From Deltaproteobacteria bacterium (GTDB lineage: Bacteria; Desulfobacterota; GWC2-55-46; JADFVP01), in contig JAJCZH010000002.1 of NCBI GenBank assembly GCA_029262515.1, positions 1-64,000 on the forward strand: a stretch of DNA of 64,000 nucleotides, read 5' to 3'. Below the pieces are notes generated by a model. That model was not told the origin of the DNA. It saw nothing but the letters and a program-made list of their open reading frames with translations, and did not search any database. Below are positions 18,189-37,563 of this stretch, piece by piece. Within the stretch, counting starts at the first letter, position 1; each line of letters starts with the position of its first letter. A program made the translations under genes and the position numbers.

Positions 18189-18233
18189 AGCCTCTAAGAT
18201 CTTTTTAAATACAGACCCGAATCAGTTATATGG

Positions 18234-19664
18234 TCAATCGCGCTTATAGTCGTCATCATACCGGACAATATCATCCTCTTTTAGGTATCCGCCGCTCTGC
18301 ACCTCAATAATCTCAAGCGGAATCTTTCCCGGATTTTCGAGCCTGTGCCTTACGCCGCGCGGAATATAGGTCGATTCGTTAACCTTTATAGTTACCGCCT
18401 CTTCACCCCGCTGCACGCGAGCGCGCCCGGCTATAACCACCCAGTGCTCGCTGCGCTTCTTATGGGACTGAAGGCTGAGCCGTTTGCCCGGCTCGACCAC
18501 TATCTTCTTTATCTTATATCCGTTACCCTCCTCCATTACCGTATAGCTGCCCCACGGCCTCTTCGTGGTAACGTGGTACTGAGTCTCGGAGTACCCTTTC
18601 TTCTTGATAACTTCCACTACATCCTTTACCTCCTGCGCCCTGCTCTTCGGACAGACAAGCGTGGCGTCAGGCGTATCGACAACAATCATATCCTCAACCC
18701 CAATAGTTGCCAGGAGCCTGTCGCTACCGACCAGAATAGAGTTCTTACTGCTAATATCAACAACGCGCCCCTTGACAATATTGCCGTTCTTATCACCGGG
18801 AAGAAGCTCGTCGAAGGAGGTCCAGCTACCCATGTCAGACCATCTGAAATTCACCGGTATAACGACAACATCGGCTGCCTTCTCTAAAATACCATGATCG
18901 ATAGAGATCGGCGTTAACGAAGCGTATGCCTTTGAGAAATCGGTCTGCCCGCTTATAGCCATAAGCATCTTATAAAGTTCTGGCAGGTGGGTTTCAATCT
19001 CTTCTAGAAGTCTCGCGGCCTTCCAGACAAAGATACCGCTGTTCCAGTAGTAACCGCCATCTTTTACGTATTTCTTTGCCCTCTGAAGGTTAGGCTTCTC
19101 AACAAACCTGTCGACCTGCTGTACGGCAAAACCGTCTATCTTCTTTGCCCTCTTACTGGCCGCCTTGATATAACCGTACCCTGTCTCCGGCGCAGTAGGC
19201 AGTATCCCAAAGGTTACAAGGTGCCCGTCGGTTGCCGCCTCTATTGCCGCAGTGAGCGCACGCTTGAATGTTACAGTATCTTCTATAACATGGTCGGCTG
19301 GAAGAACGGCCATAACAGCCTCTGGGTCTTTGCGGAAAAATTCTAAAGCGGCAAGGCCGATTGCCGGAGCGGTATTCCTGCCCATCGGCTCTATTATATA
19401 ACCGGATGAAACGGGTTTGCCGTCATACCTAAGGTGATCCTTTATAGTGTTTGCCTGCTCCTCGCTCGTGACGATAAAAACTCGTGAAGGGGGTATAAGC
19501 GGGCTGAGCCTCTTTATGGTCGCCTTAAGCAGGCTCTCGTCTCCAACCACCTTGAGTACCTGTTTCGGAGTCGTCACGCGGCTGAGCGGCCAGAAACGGC
19601 TACCGATACCTCCGGCGAGTATCGTTCCGTAGACCTTCTTTCTATTAATTTTTTTATCAGGCAT
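18234..19664 (-). CDS. manC: Mannose-1-phosphate guanylyltransferase / mannose-6-phosphate isomerase
   Basis: A 476-aa bifunctional type II enzyme supplying GDP-mannose. The N-terminal nucleotidyltransferase has LAGGIGSRFWPLSR, VLPADHVI and FVEKPN. The C-terminal cupin (residues about 360-470) begins RPWGSYTVMEEG and contains QSHKKRSEHWVV and YIPRGVRHRLENPG, the PMI metal site region. ATG 19664 is chosen (GGAAGG 4 nt upstream). The frame extends to a TTG overlapping the upstream stop (TTGA), and ATG 19676 is another option. As the last sugar-nucleotide gene of the locus it implies mannose- or GDP-mannose-derived residues in the glycan. Confidence 0.95.
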   Translation of the reverse strand: MPDKKINRKKVYGTILAGGIGSRFWPLSRVTTPKQVLKVVGDESLLKATIKRLSPLIPPSRVFIVTSEEQANTIKDHLRYDGKPVSSGYIIEPMGRNTAPAIGLAALEFFRKDPEAVMAVLPADHVIEDTVTFKRALTAAIEAATDGHLVTFGILPTAPETGYGYIKAASKRAKKIDGFAVQQVDRFVEKPNLQRAKKYVKDGGYYWNSGIFVWKAARLLEEIETHLPELYKMLMAISGQTDFSKAYASLTPISIDHGILEKAADVVVIPVNFRWSDMGSWTSFDELLPGDKNGNIVKGRVVDISSKNSILVGSDRLLATIGVEDMIVVDTPDATLVCPKSRAQEVKDVVEVIKKKGYSETQYHVTTKRPWGSYTVMEEGNGYKIKKIVVEPGKRLSLQSHKKRSEHWVVIAGRARVQRGEEAVTIKVNESTYIPRGVRHRLENPGKIPLEIIEVQSGGYLKEDDIVRYDDDYKRD

Positions 19665-19705
19665 AGTTCCTTCCATCAAAGGTAAAAGGTAATCAGATAG
19701 TCGGG

Positions 19706-21793: not shown

Positions 21794-21902
21794 CTCAACC
21801 TGCTAGCAAAAGAGGAGGTAAAAAGAGCGGACTAGCGTCAACCGAAGTTTTTTAAACCCCTTTTTCCACCAACCTTCAACCCGCCCTTCTCACGACCATC
21901 TA

Positions 21903-22856
21903 TTATTTATTGATTCGCCATTCAAGCGTCTTTTTTATTCCGGTCTCAAGGTCGACTTCCGGTGCCCAGCCGAGCTGATCCCTCGCGCGTTGTGCATTAA
22001 GCGCACTCTTTGTAAGATCCCCGGCGCGTGCGACACCTGTTTTCGGAACCTCGAACTCGGGGTTCAACCCTTCTATCCGCTCTCTGGCTGCCGCATAGAC
22101 CGCATTATATAGGTCGAGCGTATGGGTGGCGACGGTAGTGCCAATATTAAAAGCCGTGCCGCTGCCCTTCTCGAGCGCCAACAGGTTGGCCCGCGCAATA
22201 TCCCCTACAAAGCAGTAGTCACGCGTCATACCGCGAGGTTCGTCTTCAAAGTGATAGACCGTGCTCGGTGTGCCGTTTAAGAAGTTGTCCATAAAGATCG
22301 CAACAACACCCGCCTCACCGTGCGGTATCTGGCGTGGGCCATAGACGTTGGCATACCTTAAAACAGTGTAATCTAAACCGTACTGCCGCGAGTAGAATGA
22401 AAGATAGTTCTCGCTAACCGCCTTTGCAATCGCGTAAGGAGAGAGCGGCTGAGGCGGGTACGCCTCGGTTGTCGGGTACTCTTCCGCCTCGCCGTAGATT
22501 GCACCGCCCGAAGAGATGAAAATAACCTTGCGTACTTCACTCCGCCGGGCAACCTCCATAAGGTTAAGTAACCCGATAACATTAACCTCGGCATCAAAGA
22601 CAGGGTCTGTAACGGATGCCGGTACCGATATCTGTGCCGCATGGTGATTTACCACCTCGGGCCGTTCTGCCTTAAAGATGTCGGCAAGTTCTTTAGAGCG
22701 GATATCGGCTTCATAAAACTTCGCCTTGGGATTGAGGTTCTCACGCTTTCCTGAAAACAGGTTATCCACAACAACTACATCATGCCCGGCCCCTACATAT
22801 GCATCAACAACATTTGAACCGATAAACCCGGCCCCGCCAGTTACAAGTATCTTCAT
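21903..22856 (-). CDS. NAD-dependent UDP-glucose 4-epimerase-like protein
   Basis: A 317-aa extended SDR protein: MKILVTGGAGFIGSNVVDAY (Rossmann loop), FISSGGAIYG, the catalytic pair in SPYAIAKAVSENY (Tyr and Lys), and NVYGPRQIPHGEAGVVAIF. The closest resemblance is to bacterial GalE-like 4-epimerases acting on UDP-glucose, UDP-GlcNAc or uronic acids. ATG 22856 is strongly supported by GGAGGAG 5 nt upstream, rather than the longer frame start at 22895. It lies 13 bp after the preceding glycosyltransferase. Confidence 0.9.
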   Translation of the reverse strand: MKILVTGGAGFIGSNVVDAYVGAGHDVVVVDNLFSGKRENLNPKAKFYEADIRSKELADIFKAERPEVVNHHAAQISVPASVTDPVFDAEVNVIGLLNLMEVARRSEVRKVIFISSGGAIYGEAEEYPTTEAYPPQPLSPYAIAKAVSENYLSFYSRQYGLDYTVLRYANVYGPRQIPHGEAGVVAIFMDNFLNGTPSTVYHFEDEPRGMTRDYCFVGDIARANLLALEKGSGTAFNIGTTVATHTLDLYNAVYAAARERIEGLNPEFEVPKTGVARAGDLTKSALNAQRARDQLGWAPEVDLETGIKKTLEWRINK

Positions 22857-22869
22857 CCGTCTCCTCCGG

Positions 22870-24123
22870 TTACGATTTACTGTTGGTCGCTTCAATACGT
22901 TTATTTATCATATCGACAAAGATTGCCGTCTCTTTATGCCTGACTGTTGTCGTATATCTATTTAAAACATCTGCTCTTGCCCTGGAGCCAACCGACTCCC
23001 TCAGCTCCCTGCTCTCGATCAGTTTTTCTAAAGAACGCTTCCAGCCCTCGGCCTCTTCGGCCAAAAAGCCATTCTCGCCGTCTGTGATGGCATGTCTGAA
23101 AGCATCGGTCGCCGACGCAACGGTCGGCACCCTGAGTATACCCGCTTCAAAGTACTTTAACTCGCTCTTGGCATTACAGAACGGATTCTCTTTTTCAAGG
23201 GGCGCAACATTAATATCGCACCCGGCTATCAGTTCGGATAACTTTTCGGCAGAGACAAGCGGATGACGAGTAACGCGGTCTGAAAACCCTTTAAACCTGT
23301 CATTCGCCTTCAAGTAACCCACAAGCACTAGCTCTACATTCTTGTACTTTTTTAACACTTCCACCAGTAAGTCTGTAATGGAGGCAAAATCCTTGTCATG
23401 GCTCCTGGAACCCGAAAAATAGCCTATGCGCACCTTGACATTTTCCGGCCTTATTGTGCCTCCATTTCCAAGTACCCTCCCGGCAGGGACCCTCTGATCC
23501 AGCACCTTCTCGGCTCTCTTCAACTGATCCGGAGATAACCTGTTCCTTAGAACAAATACTCTCTTTTCCGGGTAATCATTGGAGATGCAATTTGCCAGGA
23601 ATTGAGTAGATACGATACAGTTCTCTACATACGGATCCTCTACAATCTCACGACCTATGCCGTTTTCGTAACAAACCCTCTCCTCGCCGGTCATATGGTT
23701 ATAATAATCGAGATGACGTAAGTACCTTCCGTTGTATACGAGATCGTCCGTTTCAAAGAGTATCACTTTACCTTGGTCTTTAATCGAACCTATAACAGCT
23801 GCAATGTGATCATCATAACGCACTCTCTGAAATATAAAAAAAGAAAACCTCTTTGTCAGCATAGATAAAAAAGGCGTGCCCTGAAAAACCACCCTCGCTG
23901 TAAGCCCGTGGCTCTTCAGTTCGTCACACATATTATAACAGCGGTACTTGGCCGAACTTCCCGGCTGTCCCATTACGTAGAGCACATCACCGCGATAACG
24001 AAGAAACCGAAGTGCGTTGAGGCCGCCTGAAAGATAGAAGGCACTAAGGCTGAGGAACGGAAAAAACCCTCGGTCTTTGTAAAAAAGATACCCTCTATTT
24101 ATAAAACTGCCGAACCTCTTCAT
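22870..24123 (-). CDS. Glycosyltransferase, GT4-like
   Basis: A 417-aa GT-B type protein. The C-terminal half shows IGYFSGSRSHDKDF, VELVLVGYL, a donor-site-like stretch (CDINVAPLEKENPFCNAKSELKYFEAG) and VPTVASATDAFRHAITDGENGFL. These are typical of group 1 glycosyltransferases. The N-terminal half is less conserved, with GQPGSSAKYRCYNM. The start region carries two tandem copies of a 12-bp unit bearing the Shine-Dalgarno (24123-24146). It belongs to the polysaccharide operon. Confidence 0.85.
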   Translation of the reverse strand: MKRFGSFINRGYLFYKDRGFFPFLSLSAFYLSGGLNALRFLRYRGDVLYVMGQPGSSAKYRCYNMCDELKSHGLTARVVFQGTPFLSMLTKRFSFFIFQRVRYDDHIAAVIGSIKDQGKVILFETDDLVYNGRYLRHLDYYNHMTGEERVCYENGIGREIVEDPYVENCIVSTQFLANCISNDYPEKRVFVLRNRLSPDQLKRAEKVLDQRVPAGRVLGNGGTIRPENVKVRIGYFSGSRSHDKDFASITDLLVEVLKKYKNVELVLVGYLKANDRFKGFSDRVTRHPLVSAEKLSELIAGCDINVAPLEKENPFCNAKSELKYFEAGILRVPTVASATDAFRHAITDGENGFLAEEAEGWKRSLEKLIESRELRESVGSRARADVLNRYTTTVRHKETAIFVDMINKRIEATNSKS

Positions 24124-24146
24124 TTAAGCCAACCTTTAAGCCAACC
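24123..24146. repeat. Tandem 12-bp duplication in a ribosome-binding region
   Basis: The unit TTTAAGCCAACC occurs twice in direct tandem (24123-24134, 24135-24146). Read on the minus strand it places the SD-like AAAGGTTGG twice before ATG 24123, the nearer copy about 9 nt away. Confidence 0.85.
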
Positions 24147-24181
24147 TTGCCGACGTAAAAAACCCGGACTGGTTTCCAACA

Positions 24182-24292
24182 CTAAACCAGACCCTTCAAA
24201 TAACCGACGCTGCGGGTGAAGTCCTCTTCAAAAACTTCGCCTGGTCTCCCGCCCGAGCTGCTCACTCTAGCGCCTTTGCGGAACAAGACACC
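24182..24292 (-). pseudogene. Remnant of an epimerase C-terminus (decayed second copy of a module)
   Basis: On the minus strand a 36-codon open stretch ends in DFTRSVGYLKGLV and a TAG stop. The intact epimerase at 25760-26686 ends in LALTVDYLKGLL. The fragment follows a GT4 gene (24310-25683) that is a clear paralogue of the GT4 gene (26705-28060) preceding the intact epimerase. The simplest reading is a duplicated GT4-epimerase module whose second epimerase has been lost except for its end. The similarity is short, so this rests largely on synteny. Confidence 0.45.
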
Positions 24293-24309
24293 TTATACGC
24301 TCCTCTTCT

Positions 24310-25683
24310 TCAGGTTTTAACAACCCCGGCTCTCTCGGCCAAAACCTCCCGGTATAAACCCTCCAGCTCACCAACATAGGTCTTAATCGATTTAGGCGGC
24401 TCTATTCCCGAAGCAAGTTTTTCCACAAGACCCTTCTCCTCTACAAGTCTCCTAAGCCGGGCAGCCAGCCCCTCGACATCGTTTTTTTCAAACAACATGC
24501 CGTTCACGCCATCATGAACAACATCCGACATGCCGCCGAGATTCGTGGCTATAACGGGCGTCATCGACGCGAAAGCCGAATAGATAACAAGCGGGGTGTT
24601 CTCGTACCAGATAGATGGAACCACCAGAACGTCGATCCCTTTAAAGATATCTCCTATCTGCTCATTAGGAAAGGTGCCGAAAAACTGAATCCTGTCGTCA
24701 CCCTTCGCGAGTCTCTTGAGCCTGAAGACAAAGTCCTTGTCAACATCGGGCCCGCCATATATTTTAACTTCAAGCGGCAGTTCTGCGGGCAGCTGCTTAA
24801 TGGCCTTTACCAGAACCTGCGACCCCTTATGCTCGCTGAGGGTACCGATAAAACCGACCCTCAGTTTGTCTCCGGGCACCTTAAAAACAGAACCCTCAAA
24901 AAGGTCGAGATTGAGCCCGAACGGCTGTAACCGAATGTTTTTATGCCCAAGACCGTTCTCAACAAGAACCTTCTCCATAAAAGAGGTCGGTACCAAGACC
25001 CGGTCTACCCTGTTTATTCGAGCCAGATTAAAATCTTTTCTCTCGGCAACCGCACGGAGCATTGGTGAGAAACGTTTGTCCGGCCACCATGCTCTCTTTG
25101 AACCCCAAACAAAGAGGTCCAAAAGCGAACCGGGCAGTTTTGAGGCTAAGGAACTCACCGGTCTGGGCCCGGAGATGCCTATCAGGTGGCGTATACAGTT
25201 ATGACCGTCCGGGTCTGGCCCTTCGCAAAGATCGTTATTTTCAAGACGTAGAAGTATAGTCTGGCAGATCGTCCAGAAGTCGGTCGGTGTGAATAGTATT
25301 GGCACACCTTCAGCAATACAGACATCTATCGCAACCGGAGTAAGGTTCAACAGGTGAAAGAAGTGGACCAGGTCGGGTTTTAACTGCTTCAACAAATCAC
25401 TGAAACGCTTTGCGAAAAACGGATTGTTGTGCTCAAACTCCATGGAGTTGCTTCCCGGAGGCACGACCCCGGGGTTATGGCTGTAGCGATGAACCGTCAC
25501 GCCGCCATACACATAGGTATCAAAAGACGTATTCTCCGGCGCACCATTACAGGCACGGTGCGCTGTTAAGACCTCGACCTCATGCCCGGAACGCTTGAGC
25601 TCTCTGGCGGTTTCGTATGTAAGCACCTCTGTCCCTCTGGAGTGGTCGGGAAAGAACTGGTGCACCGCAAGAAGGATCTTCAT
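24310..25683 (-). CDS. GT4 family glycosyltransferase, copy A
   Basis: A 457-aa GT-B protein. The N-terminal acceptor domain starts MKILLAVHQFFPDHSRGTEVLTY. The donor domain carries LRVGFIGTLSEHKGSQVL, VLVVPSIWYENTPLVIYSAFAS with the EX7E-type region, and VIATNLGGMSDVV. A Cys-containing loop (DLCEGPDPDGHNCIRH) is shared with copy B. It is a paralogue of 26705-28060, with roughly half or more identity by eye along the whole length. It follows an epimerase gene, and the epimerase remnant lies downstream. Confidence 0.92.
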   Translation of the reverse strand: MKILLAVHQFFPDHSRGTEVLTYETARELKRSGHEVEVLTAHRACNGAPENTSFDTYVYGGVTVHRYSHNPGVVPPGSNSMEFEHNNPFFAKRFSDLLKQLKPDLVHFFHLLNLTPVAIDVCIAEGVPILFTPTDFWTICQTILLRLENNDLCEGPDPDGHNCIRHLIGISGPRPVSSLASKLPGSLLDLFVWGSKRAWWPDKRFSPMLRAVAERKDFNLARINRVDRVLVPTSFMEKVLVENGLGHKNIRLQPFGLNLDLFEGSVFKVPGDKLRVGFIGTLSEHKGSQVLVKAIKQLPAELPLEVKIYGGPDVDKDFVFRLKRLAKGDDRIQFFGTFPNEQIGDIFKGIDVLVVPSIWYENTPLVIYSAFASMTPVIATNLGGMSDVVHDGVNGMLFEKNDVEGLAARLRRLVEEKGLVEKLASGIEPPKSIKTYVGELEGLYREVLAERAGVVKT

Positions 25684-25759
25684 AGTTGGACTCTCTAATA
25701 CCGTAAAAGGTAATCACCTGAAGCAGATTGAGCCTTGCAACGCATGAACCTTCTGTAAT

Positions 25760-26686
25760 CTACAGTAGTCCCTTTAGGTAGTCGACGGTTAGTGCAAGCC
25801 CCTCGCTAAGCTCAACGGACGGTGTCCAACCCAATACCGTAGACGCGCGCGTAGTATCCAATACATTTACCGGTACATCAAATGGACGTGCCGGGGTATA
25901 ACGAACATCAAGCCTTGTACCTATTACAGCCTCTATCGAACTCACTATATCGAGTAACGACAGACCTTTACCGCTACCGATATTAAAGAGCCGAGTATCC
26001 CCCGTGTACTTTAATAACTTGGTGACGGCACGAGATACATCAGTAACATAAAGATAGTCACGCGTAACAGTGCCGTCTCCCCAAATCTCTATCGACTCAT
26101 TCTTTAACGCCTTATATAAAAAGACCGTTACCGCACCCTGTGTAGCGAGCGGTCGTTGCCGTTCGCCATACGGGTTCGATATTCGCATTATTCCGTAATC
26201 CAAACCGTAAAGGTGCTGGTACAACTTTAAGTACTTCTCAATGGCAAGCTTCTGTATGCCGTACGAGACGAGCGGGTCGGTCGGATGCTCTTCGGGTATA
26301 GGGCTCTTTTCGGGTATGCCGTAAACCGTACCTCCGGAAGAGAAGAAGATAACCTTCTTGACCTTCTCGGCAACTGCGGCGTCTAAAAGGTGGAGGGTTG
26401 AGACCAGGTTAGAAGAAATATCATATGCCGGGTTATCGTTTGAGCCTTTTGGAAAGGTTGTGCTTATGCAATGGACTATATAGTCCACACCCTTTACAGC
26501 CTCTTTCAAGTGGGTCTCATTGGTAAAGTCTCCCTCGACCAACTCAACCTTATCGAGAACATGCTCAATGTTGTCGCACTTCACAGACTCCTTCTCGAAG
26601 ATCCGTACGGCATACCCCTCGCCAAGAAGCGCATCAACCACATGAGAGCCTAGGAAACCGCCCCCGCCAAGTACAAGAGCCTTCAT
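25760..26686 (-). CDS. NAD-dependent epimerase/dehydratase (extended SDR)
   Basis: A 308-aa sugar-nucleotide enzyme: MKALVLGGGGFLGSHVVDAL, FFSSGGTVYGIPE, the catalytic Tyr-Lys pair in VSYGIQKLAIEKYL, and RISNPYGERQRP. GalE-like, but the GGGGFLGSH start and GIPEKSPIPEEHP resemble the WbpP/epimerase subgroup of surface-polysaccharide loci. The precise substrate cannot be assigned. It is sandwiched between two paralogous GT4 genes; gaps are 18 bp upstream and 76 bp downstream. Confidence 0.9.
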   Translation of the reverse strand: MKALVLGGGGFLGSHVVDALLGEGYAVRIFEKESVKCDNIEHVLDKVELVEGDFTNETHLKEAVKGVDYIVHCISTTFPKGSNDNPAYDISSNLVSTLHLLDAAVAEKVKKVIFFSSGGTVYGIPEKSPIPEEHPTDPLVSYGIQKLAIEKYLKLYQHLYGLDYGIMRISNPYGERQRPLATQGAVTVFLYKALKNESIEIWGDGTVTRDYLYVTDVSRAVTKLLKYTGDTRLFNIGSGKGLSLLDIVSSIEAVIGTRLDVRYTPARPFDVPVNVLDTTRASTVLGWTPSVELSEGLALTVDYLKGLL

Positions 26687-26704
26687 GTCATTAATCTCCT
26701 CATG

Positions 26705-28060
26705 TTATACAGCCCTCTCACTCAGAACCTCTTCGTAAAAACCCTCTAACTCTTCGGCATAGGTCGCAATAGATTTAGGAGGCTCTACCTTTGAAGCGAG
26801 CCTCTCAAGGGTTCCTTTCTCTTCAATCACTCTTCTTAGCTGAGCAGCAAGCCCTTCGGCATCACCCTTTTCAAAGAGCAGGCCATTAACGTCATGCAGC
26901 ACAACCTCCGACATTCCGCCTAAATTCGTAGCTATGACCGGAGTACCGGATGCGTGCGCCGAGTATATGACTAGCGGCGTATTTTCATACCAGATTGAAG
27001 GCACCACCAGAACATCAAGGTGTGTAAATATCTCGGCAATAAGATCGTTTGGAAAAGTCCCGCAAAACTTAATCCTGCTTTCGCCCTCGGCCATCTTCGT
27101 AACACGAGCAGTATAGTCGGGAAAATCACCGAGCTTTCCGTAGACACTAACCTCTATCGGAGCTTCTGTGCCGAGCTTCTTTACCGCGTCGATCAGAACA
27201 TGCAGCCCTTTATGCTCATAAACCGTTCCAATAAAACCAACGCGTAATTTTTCACTCGGTACTTTGGTAATATTGCCGCCAAAGGCCTTCAGATTAAGCC
27301 CGTAAGGTACGAACCGTACATTATCTCTCTTGAGGCCGTTACCGGTCAACATCTCTTCCATAAAACGGGTGGGCACAAGTACGCGGTCTATCTTATTTAC
27401 CCGATCCATAATAAAATCTTTACGTTTCGAAATCGCACGCAACATAGGCGAATACCGCTTATCCGGCCACCACGCCCTGCCGGCGCCCCATATAAAGAGA
27501 CGAAGAATCGAGTCCGGCAGGTTCGGTACCAACTTCCTTACCAACCCGGAATGCGCAACAAGATGACGAATACAGTTACAACCATAACAATCCGGCCCTG
27601 TACAGAGGTCGTTATTTGCCAGCCTCAACTGGCTCACCTGACAGATGCTCCAGAAATCGGTTGGCGTAAAGCACATAGGTACACCTTCCGCGATACAGGC
27701 CTCAATGGCAGTAGGCGTAAGCCTGAAGAGGTGAAAAAAATGGACGAGGTCCGGCTTCGCCTCTCTTAAATACTCTCTGAACTGCTTACCGACTACTTTA
27801 TCATTGTGTTCGAACTCTACTGTACTTGTTCCGGGCGGAAGCGCATCAAAGCTATGGTTGTAGCGCTGAACGGGAATACCCTCATACGTATATGACTCAA
27901 AGGGTTTTTCACGTGCTAGCTCGGGATCTGCCGGAAAACCTGTCCAGACCTCTACGTCGTGACCGCGCCGCTTAAGCTCTTTGGCGGTCTCGTATGTCAA
28001 CACCTCTGTTCCGGCATGGTACTCCGGAAAAAACTGGTGTGTCGTAAAAAGAATCTTCAC
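26705..28060 (-). CDS. GT4 family glycosyltransferase, copy B
   Basis: A 451-aa paralogue of copy A, starting MKILFTTHQFFPEYHAGTEVLTY. It shares PDLVHFFHL, FTPTDFW-ICQ, AWWPDKR-SPMLRA, VLVVPSIWYENTPLVIYSA and VIATNLGGMS. The Cys loop is DLCTGPDCYGCNCIRH, with two more Cys than copy A. The two genes probably arose by duplication and add similar or successive sugars. The gene starts 5 bp after the methyltransferase-GT2 fusion, so the two are probably translationally linked. Confidence 0.92.
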   Translation of the reverse strand: MKILFTTHQFFPEYHAGTEVLTYETAKELKRRGHDVEVWTGFPADPELAREKPFESYTYEGIPVQRYNHSFDALPPGTSTVEFEHNDKVVGKQFREYLREAKPDLVHFFHLFRLTPTAIEACIAEGVPMCFTPTDFWSICQVSQLRLANNDLCTGPDCYGCNCIRHLVAHSGLVRKLVPNLPDSILRLFIWGAGRAWWPDKRYSPMLRAISKRKDFIMDRVNKIDRVLVPTRFMEEMLTGNGLKRDNVRFVPYGLNLKAFGGNITKVPSEKLRVGFIGTVYEHKGLHVLIDAVKKLGTEAPIEVSVYGKLGDFPDYTARVTKMAEGESRIKFCGTFPNDLIAEIFTHLDVLVVPSIWYENTPLVIYSAHASGTPVIATNLGGMSEVVLHDVNGLLFEKGDAEGLAAQLRRVIEEKGTLERLASKVEPPKSIATYAEELEGFYEEVLSERAV

Positions 28061-28065
28061 AGCCT

Positions 28066-30246
28066 CTACACCCCCACAGAGAGTATCCGATCCAACCGTT
28101 CATCATGATTATAAAAAGAGTAACTACCGAGCCTATCGCCTGCTGAAGTTGCATAGACCTCATATAACGCTTCCCTGACCTCTTTCTCCTGACCCTTTAA
28201 AGAGGTTTCTTCAAGGTAACGTCTGAAATGATCTAATGAATAAAAAAAGTGATTGAGTAAAATACTCTTTTTCCCAAGTACACACCCATTAGTTTTAATG
28301 CCAAAGGCTTCAGCAATATCTACAAAGATTCTACCGAGCGGTTCACCTCTGCCTATCATTGGCCCAGATACAGTATCTACTTGATTATTCATATTGTTCT
28401 TCAGATCAAGTAACGGATTTAAAGAGTTAAAGTCAAGATCTGCAACGGCCTTAACAAGGACATTATAAAGAACAAAGGCTTCGGTGAGCAAAGAGACTAG
28501 GTCTTTTGCCCGTACCTTGTCGGGCCTGTACTCAAGAAGCTCTGGCAGACCCATCAAATCAACATAACTTCTCTTAAGAATATAGGCGGCATCTCTGTTA
28601 TGAGAGTGTGTAACCCCTGAATTGTGGCAGTAGAGAAGTTTCTTACCCTCTTTTAACGCCCTGTAACCGAACTCAAGGTCCTCGGCATACCGAAAGCTTC
28701 CGAACTTATGCGTATTAAAAAAGTCGGCCCTATAAACCGAACAAACATTGTCGAGCTGGCAGAGGCGTCTTTTTTCTGCATAAGAAAGAGATGTAATATT
28801 TGGCGAAAATAAAAATTTGGACTCATTGAAACCTAGAAATTCATAAAAGCCCCACATAGACCAGCACGCAAAGAGATCGGCATCGTCACGCGGAATCTGC
28901 CTGGTGGTTACGGCAACGATCTCAGGGTCGTACTTAAAGGAGTTGACCATATCGCAAAGAAGAAAAGTATCAGAAGGTATTGCATCCTGCGTAATAAAAA
29001 GATAATAATCAACATCCGGCGCAAGGCTTGCGCCGAGGTTTCTCGTTGCGCCGTGGTTGAACTCTTTTTGAGGTATCTCATGTACAAGAGCGCCGAACTT
29101 TTTGGCCAGCTCAACAGTTCCGTCCGTTGAGCCTGAGTCTACTACGACAATATCGAGGCTCTCTACTAACTCTTGACCACTAAGCATAGTCAGAGTCTGT
29201 TCAAACTCGGAACCTGCGTTGAGCGTAGGAATTATCACCGCAACAGAACCCTCTACCGATACTCTCTCAGGTACAGCAAAAATAACCTGGTCCTCTTCTA
29301 TCTGGTCTACTTCTATTCTATTATTTGAAATTTTTTGAGGTTTTTTTTTTGCAAAACCAACTACAAACCTGAGCGGTGCGGTTACCCTCCAGCTAAATGA
29401 GTTACGGAATGTATTTGTTATCTGCTCTATGTTAGTTTGCAGTTCAACTACCTGTCTGTTAAGAGCGCCAACCTGCCTGTTAAGAACATCTATCTGCCTG
29501 TCTTTATCGGCAATAAAGCGGTTTTTATCGGCAAGAATACGTGTGGTCTCTTTTTGCGCTATAAATCTATTACCAAGCAGAGTAAACAGACTCCGTATAC
29601 CCGCCTGCTCATTCTCAGTTCCGTTCAGCAACTCTTTAACCGTACTCGGCAGGTCTCTGCCCACACCTAATACTCCTAAACCGTAACTATGCTCAAATGC
29701 AAAGTGGGGGTAACAGGCCCTTAGCTCATCCCAGAGCTTCCAAACACCAAAGTCGCCCTCACGGACTGCTATATCATGAAAGAGCACAACACCACCGGAA
29801 CTCATCTTTGGCAACCACGACTCAAAATCATGCTTAACGGCTTCGTAGGTATGCAGGCCGTCTATATGAAGCAGGTCTACAGAGCCATCTTCAATACCAG
29901 ATAGGGCTTTATCAAAAGTGCTCTGTATAAGCGTAGAGAAGCTCGAATATAAGGGATCGTGGTAAGCACGTAAATCCGCCAGCACATCCGACCCGTAAAG
30001 CCCTGCCTGATGGTCGCCCACCCAAGTATCGACAGCAAAGCAGCGCGTCTGTAAACTCAGCTTCTTTACAGCCTGACAAAAAGCGGTATAAGAGTCTCCC
30101 CTGTGCGTGCCAAGCTCTACCAGTACCTTCGGCCTTAGAAGCTCTACGATAAGCATGGCAAATGGAATATGACCAACCCATGCTGACTCGACATTAAGAA
30201 GGTCTGGCTCCGCAAGGCATATAGAATGTTCAAGTGGGTTTAACAT
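28066..30246 (-). CDS. Methyltransferase-coiled-coil-GT2 fusion protein
   Basis: A 726-aa multidomain protein. Residues about 1-200 are a class I SAM methyltransferase of the Methyltransf_24 type ([43 protein letters not shown]). About 225-300 is a coiled coil with heptad repeats ([20 protein letters not shown]). Then [14 protein letters not shown], a motif common after coiled coils in cell-surface glycosyltransferases. About 340-560 is a GT2 domain ([45 protein letters not shown]). AAAGGA lies 9 nt before ATG 30246. With the adjacent ABC exporter this layout suggests a chain-terminating or length-setting enzyme (inference). Confidence 0.88.
29450..29543. repeat. 21-bp tandem repeats encoding coiled-coil heptads
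   Basis: Consecutive 21-bp units, for example at 29450-29470, 29471-29491 and 29492-29512, share the core CCTGYCTGT. A second set from about 29503 shares TTTATCGGCAA. On the coding (minus) strand each unit encodes one seven-residue heptad (LNRQVxx or FIADKxx). Gain or loss of units would change coiled-coil length in whole heptads without a frameshift. Confidence 0.75.
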
Positions 30247-30277
30247 TAATTATTTTCCTTTTAAAATAAAAAAATTG

Positions 30278-30850
30278 CTACAAACATGCTATTACTCTGC
30301 GCAAAGCATCAATATCATCTCCGCAAAGTAGGTGAACATTGGATATAATCTTCTCGACCGGCCATTCCCACCACTTAGCTTCTAACAGAAGCTCCCTAAT
30401 ATGTTCTTCAAAACGGTACTTAATAAGCTTACACGGATTACCAGCAGCTACGGCATATGGCGGTATATCTTTCGAGACAACAGAACCAGCACCAATCACT
30501 GCACCACTCCCAATAGAAACACCTGAGAGTATTTTAGCACCATAACCAATCCACACATCATTACCGATTTCTGTATTTCCCTTAGTATGGGGGTGCCCAT
30601 CTTCTCCGGCACCAAAAAGACCGAAGACTATTCTTATAGGATAAGTAGTGAACCAATCAACTCTATGCTCACCACCGCCAAAAATTACTACTTCTTCAGC
30701 AATAGAACAAAAAGAGCCAATATTAATTCTATCCTTATCAGTCCATGTTAGCAGTTTAGGATTTCCATATGTATACTGACCCACAACAACATTAGGACTA
30801 TCTGAGATAAGCATAGGAATTTTGGTTTCGATACTCACTTTGTTGTCCAT
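30278..30850 (-). CDS. CatB-related hexapeptide-repeat O-acetyltransferase
   Basis: A 190-aa left-handed beta-helix acyltransferase of the xenobiotic (XAT/CatB) class: [30 protein letters not shown] contains the catalytic His region. Hexapeptide turns follow ([31 protein letters not shown]) and then the signature [15 protein letters not shown]. In this setting it probably O-acetylates a sugar of the glycan using acetyl-CoA. GGAG lies 5 nt before ATG 30850, and the 5' end overlaps the ATPase gene by 16 bp. The gene is more A/T-rich than its neighbours, which may reflect recent acquisition. Confidence 0.88.
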
Positions 30851-32031
30851 TTGTGCTCCATCAACACAACACCTTGCGCTGTATATTGAGCAGTTACTGT
30901 AAATTCATTGACATACCCGGTAAAGTCGTAAGCTGCCATTGCACTTGAATGAAACATACCTGCCTTTAAATAGTACGCTCCGGCAAGGAGATTAAAGGAA
31001 AGATACTCTAAAAAGAGTTCGTGCTCGCCAACTGCTCTATCAACCTTATATTCATCGAGGCGTGTATTTAAAGCGCAGACTTCAAGGTCATCGTTCCTGT
31101 AAATAGCAACACCTATAATAATGTCATCCTCTATCTCTTCAGTAATTTTGTACTTGAGCCTCACCCTAACACGCTCGCCTGTTGAAAACTCTTTGGTAAC
31201 ATTACCGTTACTATTAAGCATATCGATAGAGATAATCTGAGGAAGCCCATCCACAATCGTTTTTTGCTTTTCTATCTTAGGCTCTGTTGTTCTGCTAATC
31301 TCAGCACGCATAAAATCAGTATATAGATCCGCTACCCTGACTGGACCTCCATACTCTACAACCTTGCCTTCATTGAGCCAACAGCCTTTGTTGCAAAACT
31401 TCTTTATAGAAGTTGGTTCCTGAGTAACAAAAAGAATTGTCACTCCACTATCCTGCATCTTCTTGATACGTTCCATGCACTTGACTTTAAAGGCGACATC
31501 GCCTACACCTAACGCCTCGTCGACCACCAGAATATCGGGGTCCACACTTATGGCCGCAGCAAAGGCGAGGCGCACGAACATACCGCTGCTGTAGGTCCGA
31601 ACCGGCTGATCTATAAAATCTCCTATGTCGGCAAACTCGGCAACGGAATCGAACCGCTCATCCATCTCAGCGCGGCTGAGACCCATTAGCGCTGCATTCA
31701 TATAAACATTATCTCGCCCCGAAAACTCCGGATGAAAACCGGCTCCGAGCTCAAGTAACGCGGCAACACGCCCGTTGACCGATACAGTGCCGGAGGTCGG
31801 CTGAAGCACTCCGCAGATGATCTGCAAAAGAGTAGACTTACCGCTTCCGTTACGCCCGACTATGCCTACCGACTCTCCTCGCATGATCTCGAAATCTACA
31901 TCCCGTAATGCCCAGAACTCCTGATGGTACTGTTTGCGCCCGGGGTGAAACACCTCTTTTATCACCTGACCAACAGAGCTGTACCGTCTGAATTTTTTGC
32001 TTACGTTGTTGACACTAATTATCGTTTCCAT
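30835..32031 (-). CDS. wzt: Polysaccharide ABC exporter ATPase, Wzt type with C-terminal glycan-binding domain
   Basis: A 398-aa protein. The nucleotide-binding domain has Walker [12 protein letters not shown], signature [12 protein letters not shown] and Walker [10 protein letters not shown]. An extra C-terminal domain (residues about 255-398) is the Wzt_C-like beta-sandwich that in E. coli O8/O9a recognises the modified non-reducing end of the chain. It pairs with the permease 3 bp upstream. The longest frame starts with TTG 32037, which is better placed relative to GGAGG; ATG 32031 is the conservative choice. Confidence 0.93.
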
Positions 32032-32040
32032 TTCCAAAGA

Positions 32041-32859
32041 TTACATAACCTCCGCAAACCACGGCTTCATCCGCCTGAAAAGCACACCACCGAGACCAAA
32101 CATTACAAAAGAGGTAACGGCCATATAGATAAAATCCGCCAGGGGCAAGAACCTGCCGGCAAGCAACGCGAACCTATAACCCTCAATAAGGTGGTAAACT
32201 GGGTTGAGCTTCAGAATAAAAAGCGCACGCGGCGGTACCATGTCGGGAGAGTAGATAATGGGGGTGAGAAAAAAGAGGCCCATAATAATAAGGCCTAAGA
32301 TCTGGCCCACATCTTTAGAAAAAACATTGAGGCTAGAGAGAACCCAGCCGCAGCCGATGCAGAAGAGCGCCATAAAAAAGAGGTATATAAATATATAAAA
32401 GGTCTGCAACGGCAGAGTGCCGTTGAAGATAATAAGAATAAGCAACAGCAGAACCAGACTTATAAGGTGGCTTATTATGTTGCTGATGACAACTACTATC
32501 GGCAGTATCTCTGACGGAAAACCTACTGCCTTCTTTACGAGATTCGCATTCGAGACCAACACGCCGGAAGCTGTAGTAAGCGTCTGGGTAAAGAACTCCC
32601 AGGGCACAAGGCCGCAGAGCAGAAATAGAAAGAAACTGTCGGTCTTGTAAACCTCACCCGGGGTAGCTTTAAAGAAAAGGCCGAAGACGATACCGTAGAT
32701 CGCAACAAGAAAGAGCGGGTTAAAAACCGCCCAGAGCAACCCAAAGACGCTACCGACATACTTTGCCTTTAGATCCCTCGCTGCCATCGTACGGAGCATA
32801 TAACGGCTGCGATAAAGGCGGCCAATAAAATCGAAGAATATTATAAAGTTCTTTAACAT
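32041..32859 (-). CDS. wzm: Polysaccharide ABC exporter permease (ABC-2, Wzm type)
   Basis: A 272-aa inner-membrane protein with six predicted helices: RDLKAKYVGSVFGLLWAVFNPL near the N-terminus, then FLLCGLVPWEFF, IGLIIMGLFFLTPIIYSPDMVP and LNPVYHLIEGYR. These blocks are diagnostic of Wzm/KpsM-like ABC-2 permeases that export undecaprenyl-linked O-antigen, capsule or lipoglycan. It lies 66 bp after rmlB and 3 bp before the ATPase start region. Confidence 0.94.
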   Translation of the reverse strand: MLKNFIIFFDFIGRLYRSRYMLRTMAARDLKAKYVGSVFGLLWAVFNPLFLVAIYGIVFGLFFKATPGEVYKTDSFFLFLLCGLVPWEFFTQTLTTASGVLVSNANLVKKAVGFPSEILPIVVVISNIISHLISLVLLLLILIIFNGTLPLQTFYIFIYLFFMALFCIGCGWVLSSLNVFSKDVGQILGLIIMGLFFLTPIIYSPDMVPPRALFILKLNPVYHLIEGYRFALLAGRFLPLADFIYMAVTSFVMFGLGGVLFRRMKPWFAEVM

Positions 32860-32925
32860 ACTCTCTCTTACCTATAGCGGCTACTGAGCTTTACTACAGA
32901 TACCATAGAAATAACCATGCACTCT

Positions 32926-34014
32926 TTACCCTCTGTTGCCGTACTGCTCATCGTAGTACTTAAGGTACTCGCCAGAAAGAATAGCCTCCCACCAGGAGCG
33001 ATTGGTAACGTACCACTCTATGGTCTGTTTCATTCCCTCTTCAAAGGTCACCTCCGGCTTCCAGCCGAGTTCAGTCTCTATCTTCTGACAATCGATCGCA
33101 TAACGGCGGTCGTGCCCCGGTCGATCGGTCACATACTTTATCAGTGCCTTGCGGGGCTCCTCATACGGGTACCTCAAAGCGAGGCCCTCGTCGAGCTCTA
33201 CGAGAAAATCGACCTCGGAACAGACGAGATTTACTATCTCGATATTCTGCATCTCGCACCGGCCACCGATATTATAGGTCTCACCCAAACGGCCTCTATC
33301 AAGCACTGCCTCTATCGCCTTGCAGTGGTCTGTCACATAGAGCCAGTCGCGTACGTTCTTACCGTCTCCGTATACCGGAAGGGGTTTACCTTCAAGGGCG
33401 TTCAAGACCATAAGCGGAATCAGCTTTTCAGGAAACTGGTACGGCCCGTAGTTGTTCGAGCAGTTAGTGGTCAAGACCGGCAGGCCGTAGGTGTGGAAGT
33501 AGGCCCGTACAAGATGGTCGCTCGAAGCCTTCGAGGCCGAGTACGGAGAATTCGGACTGTACGGTGTCTCTTCCGTAAAATAACCGGTCTCTCCCAAAGA
33601 GCCGTAAACCTCATCGGTTGAAACGTGAACAAAGCGTGCACTTTCGAGAGCTTCAGGAGAGTTCCACGCCTTTCTGGCCGCTTCGAGAAGTACAAAAGTA
33701 CCCATTATATTGGTCTCGACAAAGGCCGCGGGACCGAGTATGGAACGGTCCACATGCGACTCTGCCGCGAAATTCACTACCGCATCTATCTTCTCTTTTT
33801 CAAATAATGATTCAACAAGGGAGGCGTCTGTAATATCGCCCTTTACAAACTTTAACCTAGCGGCATTGAGACCGGATAAGTTGTCGAGGTTACCGGCATA
33901 AGTAAGAGAATCTAAAACTATAATCTTTACCTCTTCGGTGCTCTCCATCATATGGCGCACAAAGTTGGCACCGATAAAACCGGCTCCACCGGTTACTAAA
34001 ACATTAGACCTCAT
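32926..34014 (-). CDS. rmlB: dTDP-glucose 4,6-dehydratase
   Basis: A 362-aa extended SDR enzyme, the second step of dTDP-L-rhamnose synthesis. Evidence: NVLVTGGAGFIGANFVRHMM, FAAESHVDRSI, HVSTDEVYGSLGE, the catalytic YSASKASSDHLV, and TTNCSNNYGPYQFPEKLIPL. All are diagnostic of RmlB. The start overlaps the end of rmlD by 11 bp. Although rmlB usually precedes rmlD, here the order along the transcript is A-C-D-B. Confidence 0.97.
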   Translation of the reverse strand: MRSNVLVTGGAGFIGANFVRHMMESTEEVKIIVLDSLTYAGNLDNLSGLNAARLKFVKGDITDASLVESLFEKEKIDAVVNFAAESHVDRSILGPAAFVETNIMGTFVLLEAARKAWNSPEALESARFVHVSTDEVYGSLGETGYFTEETPYSPNSPYSASKASSDHLVRAYFHTYGLPVLTTNCSNNYGPYQFPEKLIPLMVLNALEGKPLPVYGDGKNVRDWLYVTDHCKAIEAVLDRGRLGETYNIGGRCEMQNIEIVNLVCSEVDFLVELDEGLALRYPYEEPRKALIKYVTDRPGHDRRYAIDCQKIETELGWKPEVTFEEGMKQTIEWYVTNRSWWEAILSGEYLKYYDEQYGNRG

Positions 34015-34933
34015 TGCTTACCTCCGTTTCCATTTTCGCAACATCTTTTAACATCTCTTTTAACGACTCCCTCCAGTGAGGAATCTTTATACCAAAAACC
34101 CTCTTAATCTTCGCGGTATCGAGTACCGAATAAGCGGGCCGTGCAGCCGGAGTCGGATACTCTTCGGTTTTAATCGGCTCAATTGAAGTACAGATTATAT
34201 TCGTGCCGATTTTCATTTCAGACGCCTCTTCTATGGCAGCAACAGCCAGATCATACCAGCTCGCCACACCGTGGTTGGCATACCCGTACGTTCCCCAGAT
34301 AGTACTGCCACCTTCTGGCGAAGCTTCTTGCTCAATCCTGTTCGTAATTACGACTATCGCCCCGGCCAGATCTTTAGTCCAGGTAGGAGAACCGACCTGA
34401 TCATAAACAACGCTTAAACTCTCGCGCTCTGCAGCGAGACGGAGCATCGTATGAATGAAGTTCTTGCCGTATGCGCCATAGAGCCATGAGGTACGGATAA
34501 TAATATGCTCCGGCAGAACCTCCCTCAAGACCTCTTCACCTTTTAATTTGCTTATGCCATAAACACCGAGCGGGGATGTGGCATCCTCTTCCGTGTACGG
34601 ATGCGGACTACTGCCGTCATAAACAAAATCGGTAGAGATATGAAGTACCGCAGCGCCTGCCTCTTTGGCCGCTAGAGCGAGGTTCCGGACGCCTCCCTCA
34701 TTGACGGCAAAGGCCTTTTCGCTCTCCGTCTCAGCAAGGTCTACCTTTGTATAAGCCGCACAGTTGATTATCAGGTCCGGGGCCTCGGCTGCAAAGACGG
34801 AAGAGACCGCCCCGGCATCGGTAATATCGAGCCTGGCTGAAGTAAAAGAGACGAGGTCATGACCGCACGAAGCGAGTGCGACCAACGTATCGGTACCAAG
34901 CTGTCCTCCGCAACCTGTAATTATAATCTTCAT
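34004..34933 (-). CDS. rmlD: dTDP-4-dehydrorhamnose reductase
   Basis: A 309-aa SDR enzyme, the last step to dTDP-L-rhamnose. It has the N-terminal GCGGQLGTDT, DLIINCAAYTKVDLAE, HISTDFVYDG, the catalytic YGISKLKGE, and IIRTSWLYG. The SD-like AAGGATG is about 12 nt upstream of ATG 34933. The 80-bp gap to rmlC contains nothing notable. Confidence 0.96.
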   Translation of the reverse strand: MKIIITGCGGQLGTDTLVALASCGHDLVSFTSARLDITDAGAVSSVFAAEAPDLIINCAAYTKVDLAETESEKAFAVNEGGVRNLALAAKEAGAAVLHISTDFVYDGSSPHPYTEEDATSPLGVYGISKLKGEEVLREVLPEHIIIRTSWLYGAYGKNFIHTMLRLAAERESLSVVYDQVGSPTWTKDLAGAIVVITNRIEQEASPEGGSTIWGTYGYANHGVASWYDLAVAAIEEASEMKIGTNIICTSIEPIKTEEYPTPAARPAYSVLDTAKIKRVFGIKIPHWRESLKEMLKDVAKMETEVSNEV

Positions 34934-35013
34934 AATCTAAAAAAACATCCTTTCGGCCTGTCTCAAACAAAGAACTTGCATACAACATGAATTTTATCGC
35001 AATAAAAACAGAA

Positions 35014-35493
35014 TCAATCGATGATATACGGTGAGTTTTCAAGCTCTTCATGCCGAATCTCATCTACCGGCTCTGCTTTGCCTTGCCCCATAAAGAGACG
35101 GTTGGGGCAATTAATAACCAGTCCGCCATCGTCACCTATATTCTTATAAGCATGCACAACGCCCTTGGGTACTATTACGGCTGTCGGCTTTGAAACTCCG
35201 GCCACCAGAACCATGCGGTTCTTATATGTCGGCGAAGCCTCTCTGCCGTCCCAGAGGTAAAGCTTAAAGTCCGAAGGGCCGGCAAAGCAGAAGTAGTCCG
35301 CCTGATCTACATGTTCGTGCGGCCCGCGCACCACTCCCGATTTTGTCATAGATATATAGGTCATCACCGGAAAGTACTCTTCGTCCAACTCGTCATGGCG
35401 AAAGACCTCCATAAGCCAGCCCCGGTCATCAGAAAACTTTGGCAGTTCCTTCACCACCACGTCATCTATCGGTCCGTCCGTAAACATGATCAA
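35014..35493 (-). CDS. rmlC: dTDP-4-dehydrorhamnose 3,5-epimerase family protein (short form)
   Basis: A 159-aa cupin with DDRGWLMEVFRHDEL, SGVVRGPHEHVDQADYF and IVPKGVVHAYKNIG. The RGPHEH block replaces the RGLHxQ of classical RmlC, and the protein is some 20 residues shorter than typical RmlC. This belongs to an RmlC-like subfamily common in environmental genomes. Co-location with rmlA, rmlD and rmlB makes epimerisation of dTDP-4-keto-6-deoxyglucose the likely job. A related isomerase activity (FdtA-like) is the alternative. The start overlaps the rmlA stop by 4 bp (ATGA). Confidence 0.82.
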   Translation of the reverse strand: MIMFTDGPIDDVVVKELPKFSDDRGWLMEVFRHDELDEEYFPVMTYISMTKSGVVRGPHEHVDQADYFCFAGPSDFKLYLWDGREASPTYKNRMVLVAGVSKPTAVIVPKGVVHAYKNIGDDGGLVINCPNRLFMGQGKAEPVDEIRHEELENSPYIID

Positions 35494-36584
35494 ACCTCCA
35501 CCACTGAGTCGTCACCTACCATCAACCTGAGCGCCTTATGTTTATTATGACACTTGCCCACCCTGGCATCGCGGCCAATAAGGCTGTCTTCCAAGCGGTC
35601 CACATGATCTATCTCGGCGCCGGCAAGGATAACAGAGTGCTCTATTATAGACTTCTTCACCTTGGAGCCGTCACCGATTGAAGTGTACGGCCCCACGAAA
35701 CTGTCTTTTATAACAGAGCCTTTACCGATAACAATAGGCCCTCTAAGCGTAGAGTTTTTTACTACCGCGCCCTCGGCAATAGAGACACGGCCAGTTACTT
35801 CCGACTCTTCATCGACACTGCCTTTAATATCACGCTTTAACCATTCGTCAAGAACCACGGTATTAGCCGCTAGCAGATCGTCTTTCTTTCCGGTATCGAG
35901 CCACCAGGTATCGAGCACCTGGCTTTGTACGGGGGCCCCCACCGTAACGAGACGCTGTATCGCATCCGTAATCTCAAGCTCGCCTCTGGGCGACGGCTCG
36001 ATCTCCTCTATCGCCTTATGTATACGAGTAGAGAAGATATAAACCCCTACGAGCGCAAGGTTGCTCTTCGGCTCTTTCGGTTTCTCTACGAGCCTCACTA
36101 TCGTGCCGTCTTCAGCTACCTCGGCAATGCCGAAGGAACTCGGGTTGTCGACCGGTTTTAAAAGTATTACGGCATCTGAGCCAGAGGTATTGAAGGTATC
36201 GACGAACTTGTCTATGCGGCAACCGATGAGGTTGTCTCCCAGGTACATTACAAACGGGGAGTCTCCGAGAAAGTCCCGGGCTACAACCACGGCGTGAGCC
36301 AGCCCCTTCGGCTCGGTCTGAGGAATATAGGTAATTTTCACCCCCCATTCGCTGCCGTCCCCCATAGTCTCTTTAATCTCTTCACCCGTTTCAGGAGAGA
36401 TTATCATTCCTACCTCGGTGATGCCGGCATTTGCAAGATTATCAACAACATAAGCGAGTATCGGGCGGTTAGCGATCGGTACGAGCTGTTTCGCCCCGGT
36501 ATGGGTAATCGGACGAAGGCGCGTACCCTTACCCCCGCTTAGAATCAACCCCTTCATCACAGGTCTTGTTTCGTTCTCAGACAT
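35490..36584 (-). CDS. rmlA: Glucose-1-phosphate thymidylyltransferase (long form)
   Basis: A 364-aa enzyme, the first step of dTDP-rhamnose synthesis. The N-terminal nucleotidyltransferase has LILSGGKGTRLRPITHTGAKQL and FVMYLGDNLI. The C-terminal part (residues about 250-345) is a left-handed beta-helix (GKGSVIKDSFVGPYTSIGDGSKV) as in the 'RmlA_long' group. ATG 36584 is supported by GGGGAG 7 nt upstream; the longer ATG 36599 overlaps that SD. It is the first biosynthetic gene after the regulator, 153 bp downstream. Confidence 0.95.
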   Translation of the reverse strand: MSENETRPVMKGLILSGGKGTRLRPITHTGAKQLVPIANRPILAYVVDNLANAGITEVGMIISPETGEEIKETMGDGSEWGVKITYIPQTEPKGLAHAVVVARDFLGDSPFVMYLGDNLIGCRIDKFVDTFNTSGSDAVILLKPVDNPSSFGIAEVAEDGTIVRLVEKPKEPKSNLALVGVYIFSTRIHKAIEEIEPSPRGELEITDAIQRLVTVGAPVQSQVLDTWWLDTGKKDDLLAANTVVLDEWLKRDIKGSVDEESEVTGRVSIAEGAVVKNSTLRGPIVIGKGSVIKDSFVGPYTSIGDGSKVKKSIIEHSVILAGAEIDHVDRLEDSLIGRDARVGKCHNKHKALRLMVGDDSVVEV

Positions 36585-36694
36585 ATCAATTCTCCCCATT
36601 TATCGACAATATTAAAAACTCTAATGGTTGACACTCAGTTCTTACAATTAAAAATTTTTCGACCTTTGCCTCGTTTTGGGACAAACGTAACCGT

Positions 36695-36712
36695 TATCCG
36701 TAAAAACGGATA
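36695..36712. other. Small hairpin between the regulator and rmlA
   Basis: TATCCGT and ACGGATA form a 7-bp stem around an AAAA (plus) or TTTT (minus) loop in the 153-bp gap between regulator stop and rmlA start. No T-run follows on the minus strand, so it does not look like an intrinsic terminator. It could affect processing or regulation of the leader, which is speculative. Confidence 0.4.
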
Positions 36713-36737
36713 CTACCTTATCGGTAGATTCTTTTTA

Positions 36738-37370
36738 TTATTCAATTCTTTTCAGCCACCCGCCGCTCGAAATATCATAGATTCTCTTTTCATCAATTCC
36801 GGCCTCTACAAGCGCCCCTACATAACCGCCGCCACCCGTAAAAGAGGTTATCACAACAGCATCGATTTCGAGGGTTCCAGCGCTACCTATTGGTAAAATA
36901 TCGTTACCGAAAAACTTATTTTCACCCGATGCGCTATCAAGAACTGCTGAGAGTGTTAACTCGGTCTCCGAGAGCGAGAGAAAGGCTATCTCCGAGACCT
37001 CGTCGACACCGCAAAAAGCTATATTTTGATGGCCCGAAGCTTCCAAAGCCTTAAAAAGGGTCTGGAAATCCTTACGAGCTACACGATACAAGTTGGTAAA
37101 GTTCTGAAGATGTCTATAGGTAAGGCGTGTCTTTTCCGCCAGCCCCGAGGGCGTTAGGTAGTACCTGTACCGCTTCTTCGGAATGGTAGAGACGGTAATA
37201 TAACCTTTGGTGGTGAGGTTTTTAATATAGGAGTTAATAAGCCCGAGCGCGATGCCGAGCTGTTTGCTTAAATCTCTCTGTGTTAACTGATTCTCTTTCG
37301 ATATCTCATCCAAGAGCAGAAGAGAGCGGTACTCATCTGTACCGGGCGTATCGGTCTCCTTGTTGTTCAT
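36738..37370 (-). CDS. Winged-helix (MarR/EPS-type) transcriptional regulator of the polysaccharide locus
   Basis: A 210-aa protein. The N-terminal winged helix (residues about 12-75: NQLTQRDLSKQLGIALGLINSYIKNLTTKGYI) has a clear recognition helix and a basic wing (TIPKKRYRYYLT). A C-terminal alpha/beta domain (about 105-210: IAFCGVDEVSEIAFLS, LEIDAVVITSF) resembles a Rossmann-like ligand-binding fold. Such two-domain regulators often head exopolysaccharide operons. ATG 37370 lies inside a 15-bp palindrome and coincides with the predicted transcription start, so the mRNA is probably leaderless and the gene autoregulated. The longer TTG frame start would lie in the promoter. Confidence 0.85.
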   Translation of the reverse strand: MNNKETDTPGTDEYRSLLLLDEISKENQLTQRDLSKQLGIALGLINSYIKNLTTKGYITVSTIPKKRYRYYLTPSGLAEKTRLTYRHLQNFTNLYRVARKDFQTLFKALEASGHQNIAFCGVDEVSEIAFLSLSETELTLSAVLDSASGENKFFGNDILPIGSAGTLEIDAVVITSFTGGGGYVGALVEAGIDEKRIYDISSGGWLKRIE

Positions 37371-37379
37371 AATATGAAC
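37365..37379. promoter_or_regulatory. Operator 1 of the polysaccharide regulator
   Basis: GTTCATAATATGAAC, two 7-bp arms around one central base. It overlaps the 3' half of the -10 element and includes the initiator ATG (37370-37368) of the regulator gene. Occupancy should block polymerase. Confidence 0.8.
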
Positions 37380-37405
37380 ATAACATGCCGCCAAAGCGCT
37401 GTCAA
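37377..37405 (-). promoter_or_regulatory. Sigma-70-type promoter of the polysaccharide operon
   Basis: On the minus strand TTGACA (37405-37400), a 17-bp spacer and TATGTT (37382-37377). The predicted start, 7 nt after the -10 box, falls on 37370, the A of the ATG. Operators 1 and 2 lie on either side. Confidence 0.8.
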
Positions 37406-37411
37406 GGGCTT

Positions 37412-37426
37412 GTTCATATTATGAAC
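37412..37426. promoter_or_regulatory. Operator 2 of the polysaccharide regulator
   Basis: GTTCATATTATGAAC, identical to operator 1 except for strand of the central base. It lies just upstream of the -35 element; the centres are 47 bp apart. I saw no third copy in the window. Confidence 0.8.
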
Positions 37427-37563
37427 GGGGTAGCTCTGTGCTTTTTATCATATAACTGACTTGCAATCTATTCACCACATACAAAAGCACTCATTAAAAC
37501 CTATACCATACGTTCATGCCATTAAGCTTAACAACTATACGGGGGTATGGGGGTACGGGAAAT

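Follow-up and report, generated by a model that had tools for sequence, protein, structure and literature searches.

A MarR_EPS-like regulator whose start codon lies inside a conserved operator-like palindrome at the head of polysaccharide loci

The window (the whole 64,000-nucleotide stretch analysed here) holds a polysaccharide locus headed by the gene for a winged-helix protein, and the position of two palindromes around the promoter of that gene raises the question of what binds them and which genes they serve. Sequence searches place exact palindromes at 37365-37379, GTTCATAATATGAAC, and at 37412-37426, GTTCATATTATGAAC, with centres 47 bp apart. Between them lies a minus-strand promoter made up of TTGACA at 37405-37400, a 17-nt spacer, TATGTT at 37382-37377 and a TG one base before the -10; the initial annotation had described this arrangement, with the regulator ATG inside the downstream palindrome, and was correct to the base. 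The elements are listed here with the palindromes extended to the 17-bp form that is conserved in relatives.

37411 to 37427, no strand: operator 2, core 37412-37426, 6 bp upstream of the -35 (sequence and orthologues)
37400 to 37405, minus strand: -35 hexamer TTGACA, of which TTGAC is kept in aligned orthologue promoters
37377 to 37385, minus strand: extended -10, TG-T-TATGTT, hexamer at 37382-37377, with TGnTAT kept in aligned promoters
37364 to 37380, no strand: operator 1, 17-bp consensus YGTTCA-N5-TGAACR, core 37365-37379 (sequence and orthologue conservation)
37368 to 37370, minus strand: regulator ATG and predicted leaderless transcription start, the A being 7 nt downstream of the -10
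36738 to 37370, minus strand: regulator, 210 aa, MarR_EPS-like winged helix with a C-terminal Rossmann-like domain

Operator 1 spans the 3' end of the -10, with an overlap of 3 bp, the predicted +1 and the start codon of the regulator. From the end of the -10 to the A of the ATG is about 7 nt, which predicts a leaderless mRNA whose first base is that A. In the 2.5-Mb genome the exact 15-mer occurs at these two places only, and the looser pattern GTTCAN5TGAAC occurs four times, twice here and twice inside reading frames, against no occurrence of the reversed control pattern. The twin palindromes flanking the promoter are not a product of chance. Among the matches listed for the 15-mer, those on viral contigs are chance matches of the kind expected from a large collection, and we set them aside.

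The protein encoded behind this promoter is a winged helix like that of TIGR04176 (MarR family EPS-associated transcriptional regulator, or MarR_EPS) with an added Rossmann-like domain. It matches Pfam HTH_24 at E 2e-10 (40.5 bits, above the gathering cut-off of 21.9), and TIGR04176 is its best curated relative at 65.5 bits, below the cut-off of 88; scores for Pfam MarR (PF01047; 20.0 bits, gathering cut-off 24.6) and NCBIfam FabT (25.8, cut-off 200) are under their thresholds. For the conserved C-terminal domain, about 90 residues long, structure prediction gives a small Rossmann-like fold with pLDDT mostly about 80-90, in a model built from 8 sequences whose C-terminal domain is good and whose wing is poor (pLDDT <50 at residues 55-81). 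The sole strong fold match of the model is the uncharacterised structure 2g6t (E 9.5e-4), whose 90-residue N-terminal domain is also matched by profile (E 1.8e-3), and the earlier proposal of a Rossmann-like fold is thereby upheld, the sugar-nucleotide or redox ligand proposed with it being a candidate at most. The classical GxGxxG is absent from the protein, which has FCGVDEV instead, and we did not treat the weak matches to eIF2B and sugar C-methyltransferases as proving a ligand. A Rex-like or redox reading of the domain gained no support: Rex models gave no match to the window protein at E 0.01 and one weak match among 60 relatives. The Rossmann-like domain is the probable signal sensor.

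Relatives gathered from the family, class and phylum gave 121 distinct regulators, orthologues that are not independent and come mostly from metagenome-assembled genomes. An exact GTTCA-N5-TGAAC lies upstream of the gene in 39 of the 41 close orthologues, compared with 0.12% of shuffled upstream regions, so the motif that the initial annotation had expected ahead of close orthologues is present there. In 38 of these 41, an ATG or GTG start codon sits in frame inside the operator, always at offset 9, and 31 of the 41 have two or more sites, mostly 50 bp apart. Across all 121 regulators, GTTCA-Nn-TGAAC was found with n=5 in 87 cases and n=4 in 2, and none of the other spacer lengths from n=0 to 10 occurred upstream; in the close group the spacer is 5 only. 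All 43 start-codon sites also retain the flanking Y and R, two positions that the search pattern did not specify. The palindromes of the initial annotation stand, with one refinement: what relatives keep is a 17-bp operator, Y-GTTCA-N5-TGAAC-R, with a free, AT-rich centre, and not a fixed 15-mer of 7-1-7 form. Aligned promoters share the order operator 2, 7 bp, TTGAC, spacer, TGnTAT, 0-1 bp, and operator 1 with the ATG, and the positions of the -35 and extended -10 are conserved across close-orthologue promoters. More remote relatives often have a leader, with the site tens of bases ahead of the start codon. Additional operators, a third or a fourth, lie further upstream in L145, L158, L161-L164, L249 and L255, for example 48-67 bp beyond operator 2. 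In the close relative G038 (L142, L376) the regulator's own operator has lost its left half, leaving CGTTATGAAC, and a twin-operator cassette stands ahead of wzm-wzt about 15 kb from the regulator.

The genes that the window promoter would serve lie downstream on the same strand, and two sets of them are distinguished here.

30835 to 36599, minus strand: rmlA, rmlC-like, rmlD, rmlB, wzm and wzt, the proposed first targets (profile matches)
17811 to 30850, minus strand: hexapeptide transferase, glycosyltransferases, epimerases, manC-like gene and on to acpS, co-oriented, with continuous transcription only putative

The roughly 19-kb minus-strand operon that the initial annotation drew from rmlA to acpS is only a candidate on sequence grounds: gaps of 77-187 bp break the run, and weak terminator- and promoter-like matches are numerous along it. 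The cassette and then an equal gene order recur in L005, and also in L367 except for a match to rmlD. Among 82 relatives, the genes directly 3' of the regulator are mostly polysaccharide genes, with Pfam matches to sugar-nucleotide epimerases/dehydratases (19), NusG-domain proteins (14), nucleotidyltransferases (13), UDP-glucose/GDP-mannose dehydrogenases (10) and NeuB (6), followed by glycosyltransferases. The genome of the window has two NusG-domain genes. Just past the regulator stop, a short hairpin, ACCGATAAGGTAGTATCCG, occupies window positions 36705-36727 on the minus strand and is near-identical in the sister species L005. We dropped a general claim about an ops-like GGTAG in the leader between the regulator and rmlA, which is shared at the same place with the sister species only.

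Evidence on targets that does not depend on adjacency comes from copies of the promoter and operator elsewhere in relatives' genomes, which we searched for as a cassette, TTGAC-N20-24-GTTCAN5TGAAC, with the reversed pattern as control. The class contains 61 copies in 40 of 63 genomes and no control match, and of the 395 genomes in the phylum sample, 46 have the cassette and just 2 have any control match. About 20 of the class copies have no intact regulator behind them, and of those that are readable most precede polysaccharide genes: wzm (in six genomes), wzt, gmd, an epimerase, a hexapeptide transferase and a glycosyltransferase. One such target in trans, a family 2 glycosyltransferase, has its own ATG inside the operator. 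The trans copies with no clear target include two before a gene lacking a Pfam match and one before a gene with a weak match; two more lie at contig ends and are unreadable, L361 has no picked co-oriented gene, and the copy on contig C5 of G023, inside a reading frame, is probably a chance match. In G032 the cassette precedes an orthologous rmlA-rmlC-rmlB-wzm-wzt operon (73%, 75%, 69%, 58% and 68% identical to the window genes, respectively) and the regulator gene is on another contig. The operon there keeps the operator with the regulator elsewhere, which supports control of the rml operon by the regulator independently of adjacency and bears out the target assignment made from the window.

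In L358 (G043), L362 (G041), L368 (G016) and L369 (G017), what follows the trans cassette is a decayed remnant of the start of the regulator itself: 31/36 and 32/36 nt are identical in L358 and L362, L368 has 22/36 identical nt and a truncated regulator frame, and L369 has a short partial regulator match. These remnants suggest that the regulon may grow by duplication of the regulator's 5' end. In G018 (C1:144432-144613) and G019 (C13:24828-25007), two twin-operator promoters stand back to back, with four operators in all; one serves the regulator and the other the divergent polysaccharide genes.

We propose that the 210-aa regulator is probably an autorepressor that would block RNA polymerase at the start site and control a polysaccharide regulon. 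The winged-helix protein would bind YGTTCA-N5-TGAACR as a dimer and repress its own gene. Bound at operator 1, the dimer would sit across the start site, the start codon and the last bases of the -10, and initiation would be blocked because the operator overlies the transcription start, while operator 2, abutting the -35, may raise occupancy. With an mRNA beginning at the A of the ATG, the right half-site of the operator would also encode Met-Asn, the first two residues of the regulator. A signal, presumably sensed by the C-terminal Rossmann-like domain, would release the protein and leave the strong promoter free to drive the dTDP-rhamnose and ABC-export polysaccharide genes that follow it, and in relatives the cassette would also serve, in trans, polysaccharide operons at other places in the genome. 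The comparison with relatives supports the autoregulation at a leaderless start that the initial annotation had suggested, as well as the assignment of the palindromes as the regulator's own operators; that the control is repression rather than activation is our inference.

This proposal has to be weighed against other uses of the palindromes, two of which concern the upstream site. The initial annotation had raised looping between the operators, and most of the 31 close orthologues with two or more sites do have twin sites about 50 bp apart, as operators acting by DNA looping or strictly phased cooperative binding might require. In 27 of 30 promoters, however, operator 2 is 7 bp from TTGAC, and the distance from TTGAC to operator 1 is 26, 27 or 28, so that the operator-operator distance drifts from 47 to 51 bp with the promoter spacer and without compensation (r = -0.16). 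The upstream site is fixed to the -35 and not to the other operator, which disfavours looping or strict helical phasing; an ordinary loop also needs more than 50 bp, and several close orthologues have one-operator promoters that keep operator 1 and lack operator 2. We therefore regard this explanation as improbable. The same constant 7-bp gap is what would be expected of a protein that contacts polymerase, and a dual factor could in principle aid RNA polymerase from operator 2, centred near -48, and repress from operator 1. This reading is less remote, but we still consider it unlikely: a near-consensus -35 (TTGAC) with an extended -10 should work unaided, making an activator unnecessary, and the promoters with operator 1 only would lack the activating site. 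The spacing fits extra occupancy beside polymerase or, less likely, a polymerase contact.

The remaining alternatives question whether the local protein, or any protein, reads the palindromes. That they serve another regulator, the winged-helix protein of the locus not being their binder, is very improbable given that the motif tracks this regulator family through numerous families of the phylum and as far as Alphaproteobacteria, and that 20 of the 22 class genomes without a regulator match also lack the cassette; the two exceptions, G015 and G039, have the cassette in assemblies that are 61% and 77% complete. The palindrome could also fold as an RNA hairpin if transcribed, or could merely overlap the codons ATG-AAC by chance. 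We give next to no credence to either version. A transcript would include neither site, given that operator 2 precedes the -35 and half of operator 1 precedes the predicted start, and a chance overlap with codons would not account for flanking Y and R bases kept without exception or for a close group restricted to a single spacer length.

The half-site extends beyond the phylum. On two Chelatococcus plasmids, a two-domain homologue (34% identity over 161 aa in the one compared) lies between a mannose-1-phosphate guanylyltransferase gene and gmd, and upstream of it lies GTTCACGGCGTGAAC, repeated at a distance of 27-28 bp, perfectly in one plasmid and with a single mismatch in the other. Annotated MarR_EPS genes on Roseobacter-group plasmids have GTTCA-N4-TGAAC well upstream in 7 of the 8 that were read. 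From these two groups it appears that GTTCA is the half-site of the family at large and that the 5-bp spacer is particular to the two-domain branch. Most of the Roseobacter-group loci (L410-L417) also carry, immediately ahead of the MarR_EPS gene, a conserved TGCGGTAGCC resembling the RfaH ops element, and a NusG-family gene adjoins in one locus.

Comparison with known systems helps to place the regulator. All 60 two-domain members scanned match the winged-helix profile of TIGR04176, the gene heads polysaccharide loci in the window and, for the most part, in the 82 relatives as MarR_EPS genes do, and the Roseobacter half-site is identical. The differences are that none of 20 relatives scores over the TIGR04176 cut-off, that TIGR04176 describes a single domain of about 105 residues whereas the 210-aa window protein has about 100 more forming the Rossmann-like domain, and that the window class has a spacer of 5 rather than 4 and a start codon inside the operator. 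Rex likewise combines a winged helix with a following Rossmann-like domain and has a palindromic operator over the promoter; the Rex operator is TTGTGAA-N4-TTCACAA, and the window operator has its half-sites in the opposite order. The nearest solved winged-helix relative by profile is a FabT-type MarR protein (6jbx, E 2e-4); FabT controls fatty-acid synthesis and is not known to have a Rossmann-like C-terminal domain. A leaderless repressor gene has a precedent in Corynebacterium glutamicum crtR, a MarR-type regulator reported to be transcribed without a leader (PMC5401885), which belongs to another family and regulon and for which no start-codon-centred operator appears in the passages of that report that we consulted.

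Annotation had already supplied the family name and a link between the family and polysaccharide loci, and the open-access literature that we searched, 5.39 million papers, gave no operator, regulon, signal or start-codon arrangement for the MarR_EPS family. What emerges here looks like a widespread, undescribed control circuit for surface polysaccharides, and few regions of bacterial genomes vary as much as the loci for these. We speculate, tentatively, that a phylum-wide polysaccharide regulon is controlled by two-domain MarR_EPS-like repressors that may read the level of a sugar nucleotide, perhaps a dTDP-sugar, through the Rossmann-like domain, with the operator fused to the start codon; such a regulon might grow by copying the 5' end of the regulator together with the cassette, after which the copied regulator would decay and the promoter would serve the next polysaccharide gene. 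With the 17-bp operator and the cassette defined, the regulon of these bacteria can be predicted from sequence and the search for the ligand can move to in vitro tests; the locus also offers an example of a coding start held letter for letter by an operator.
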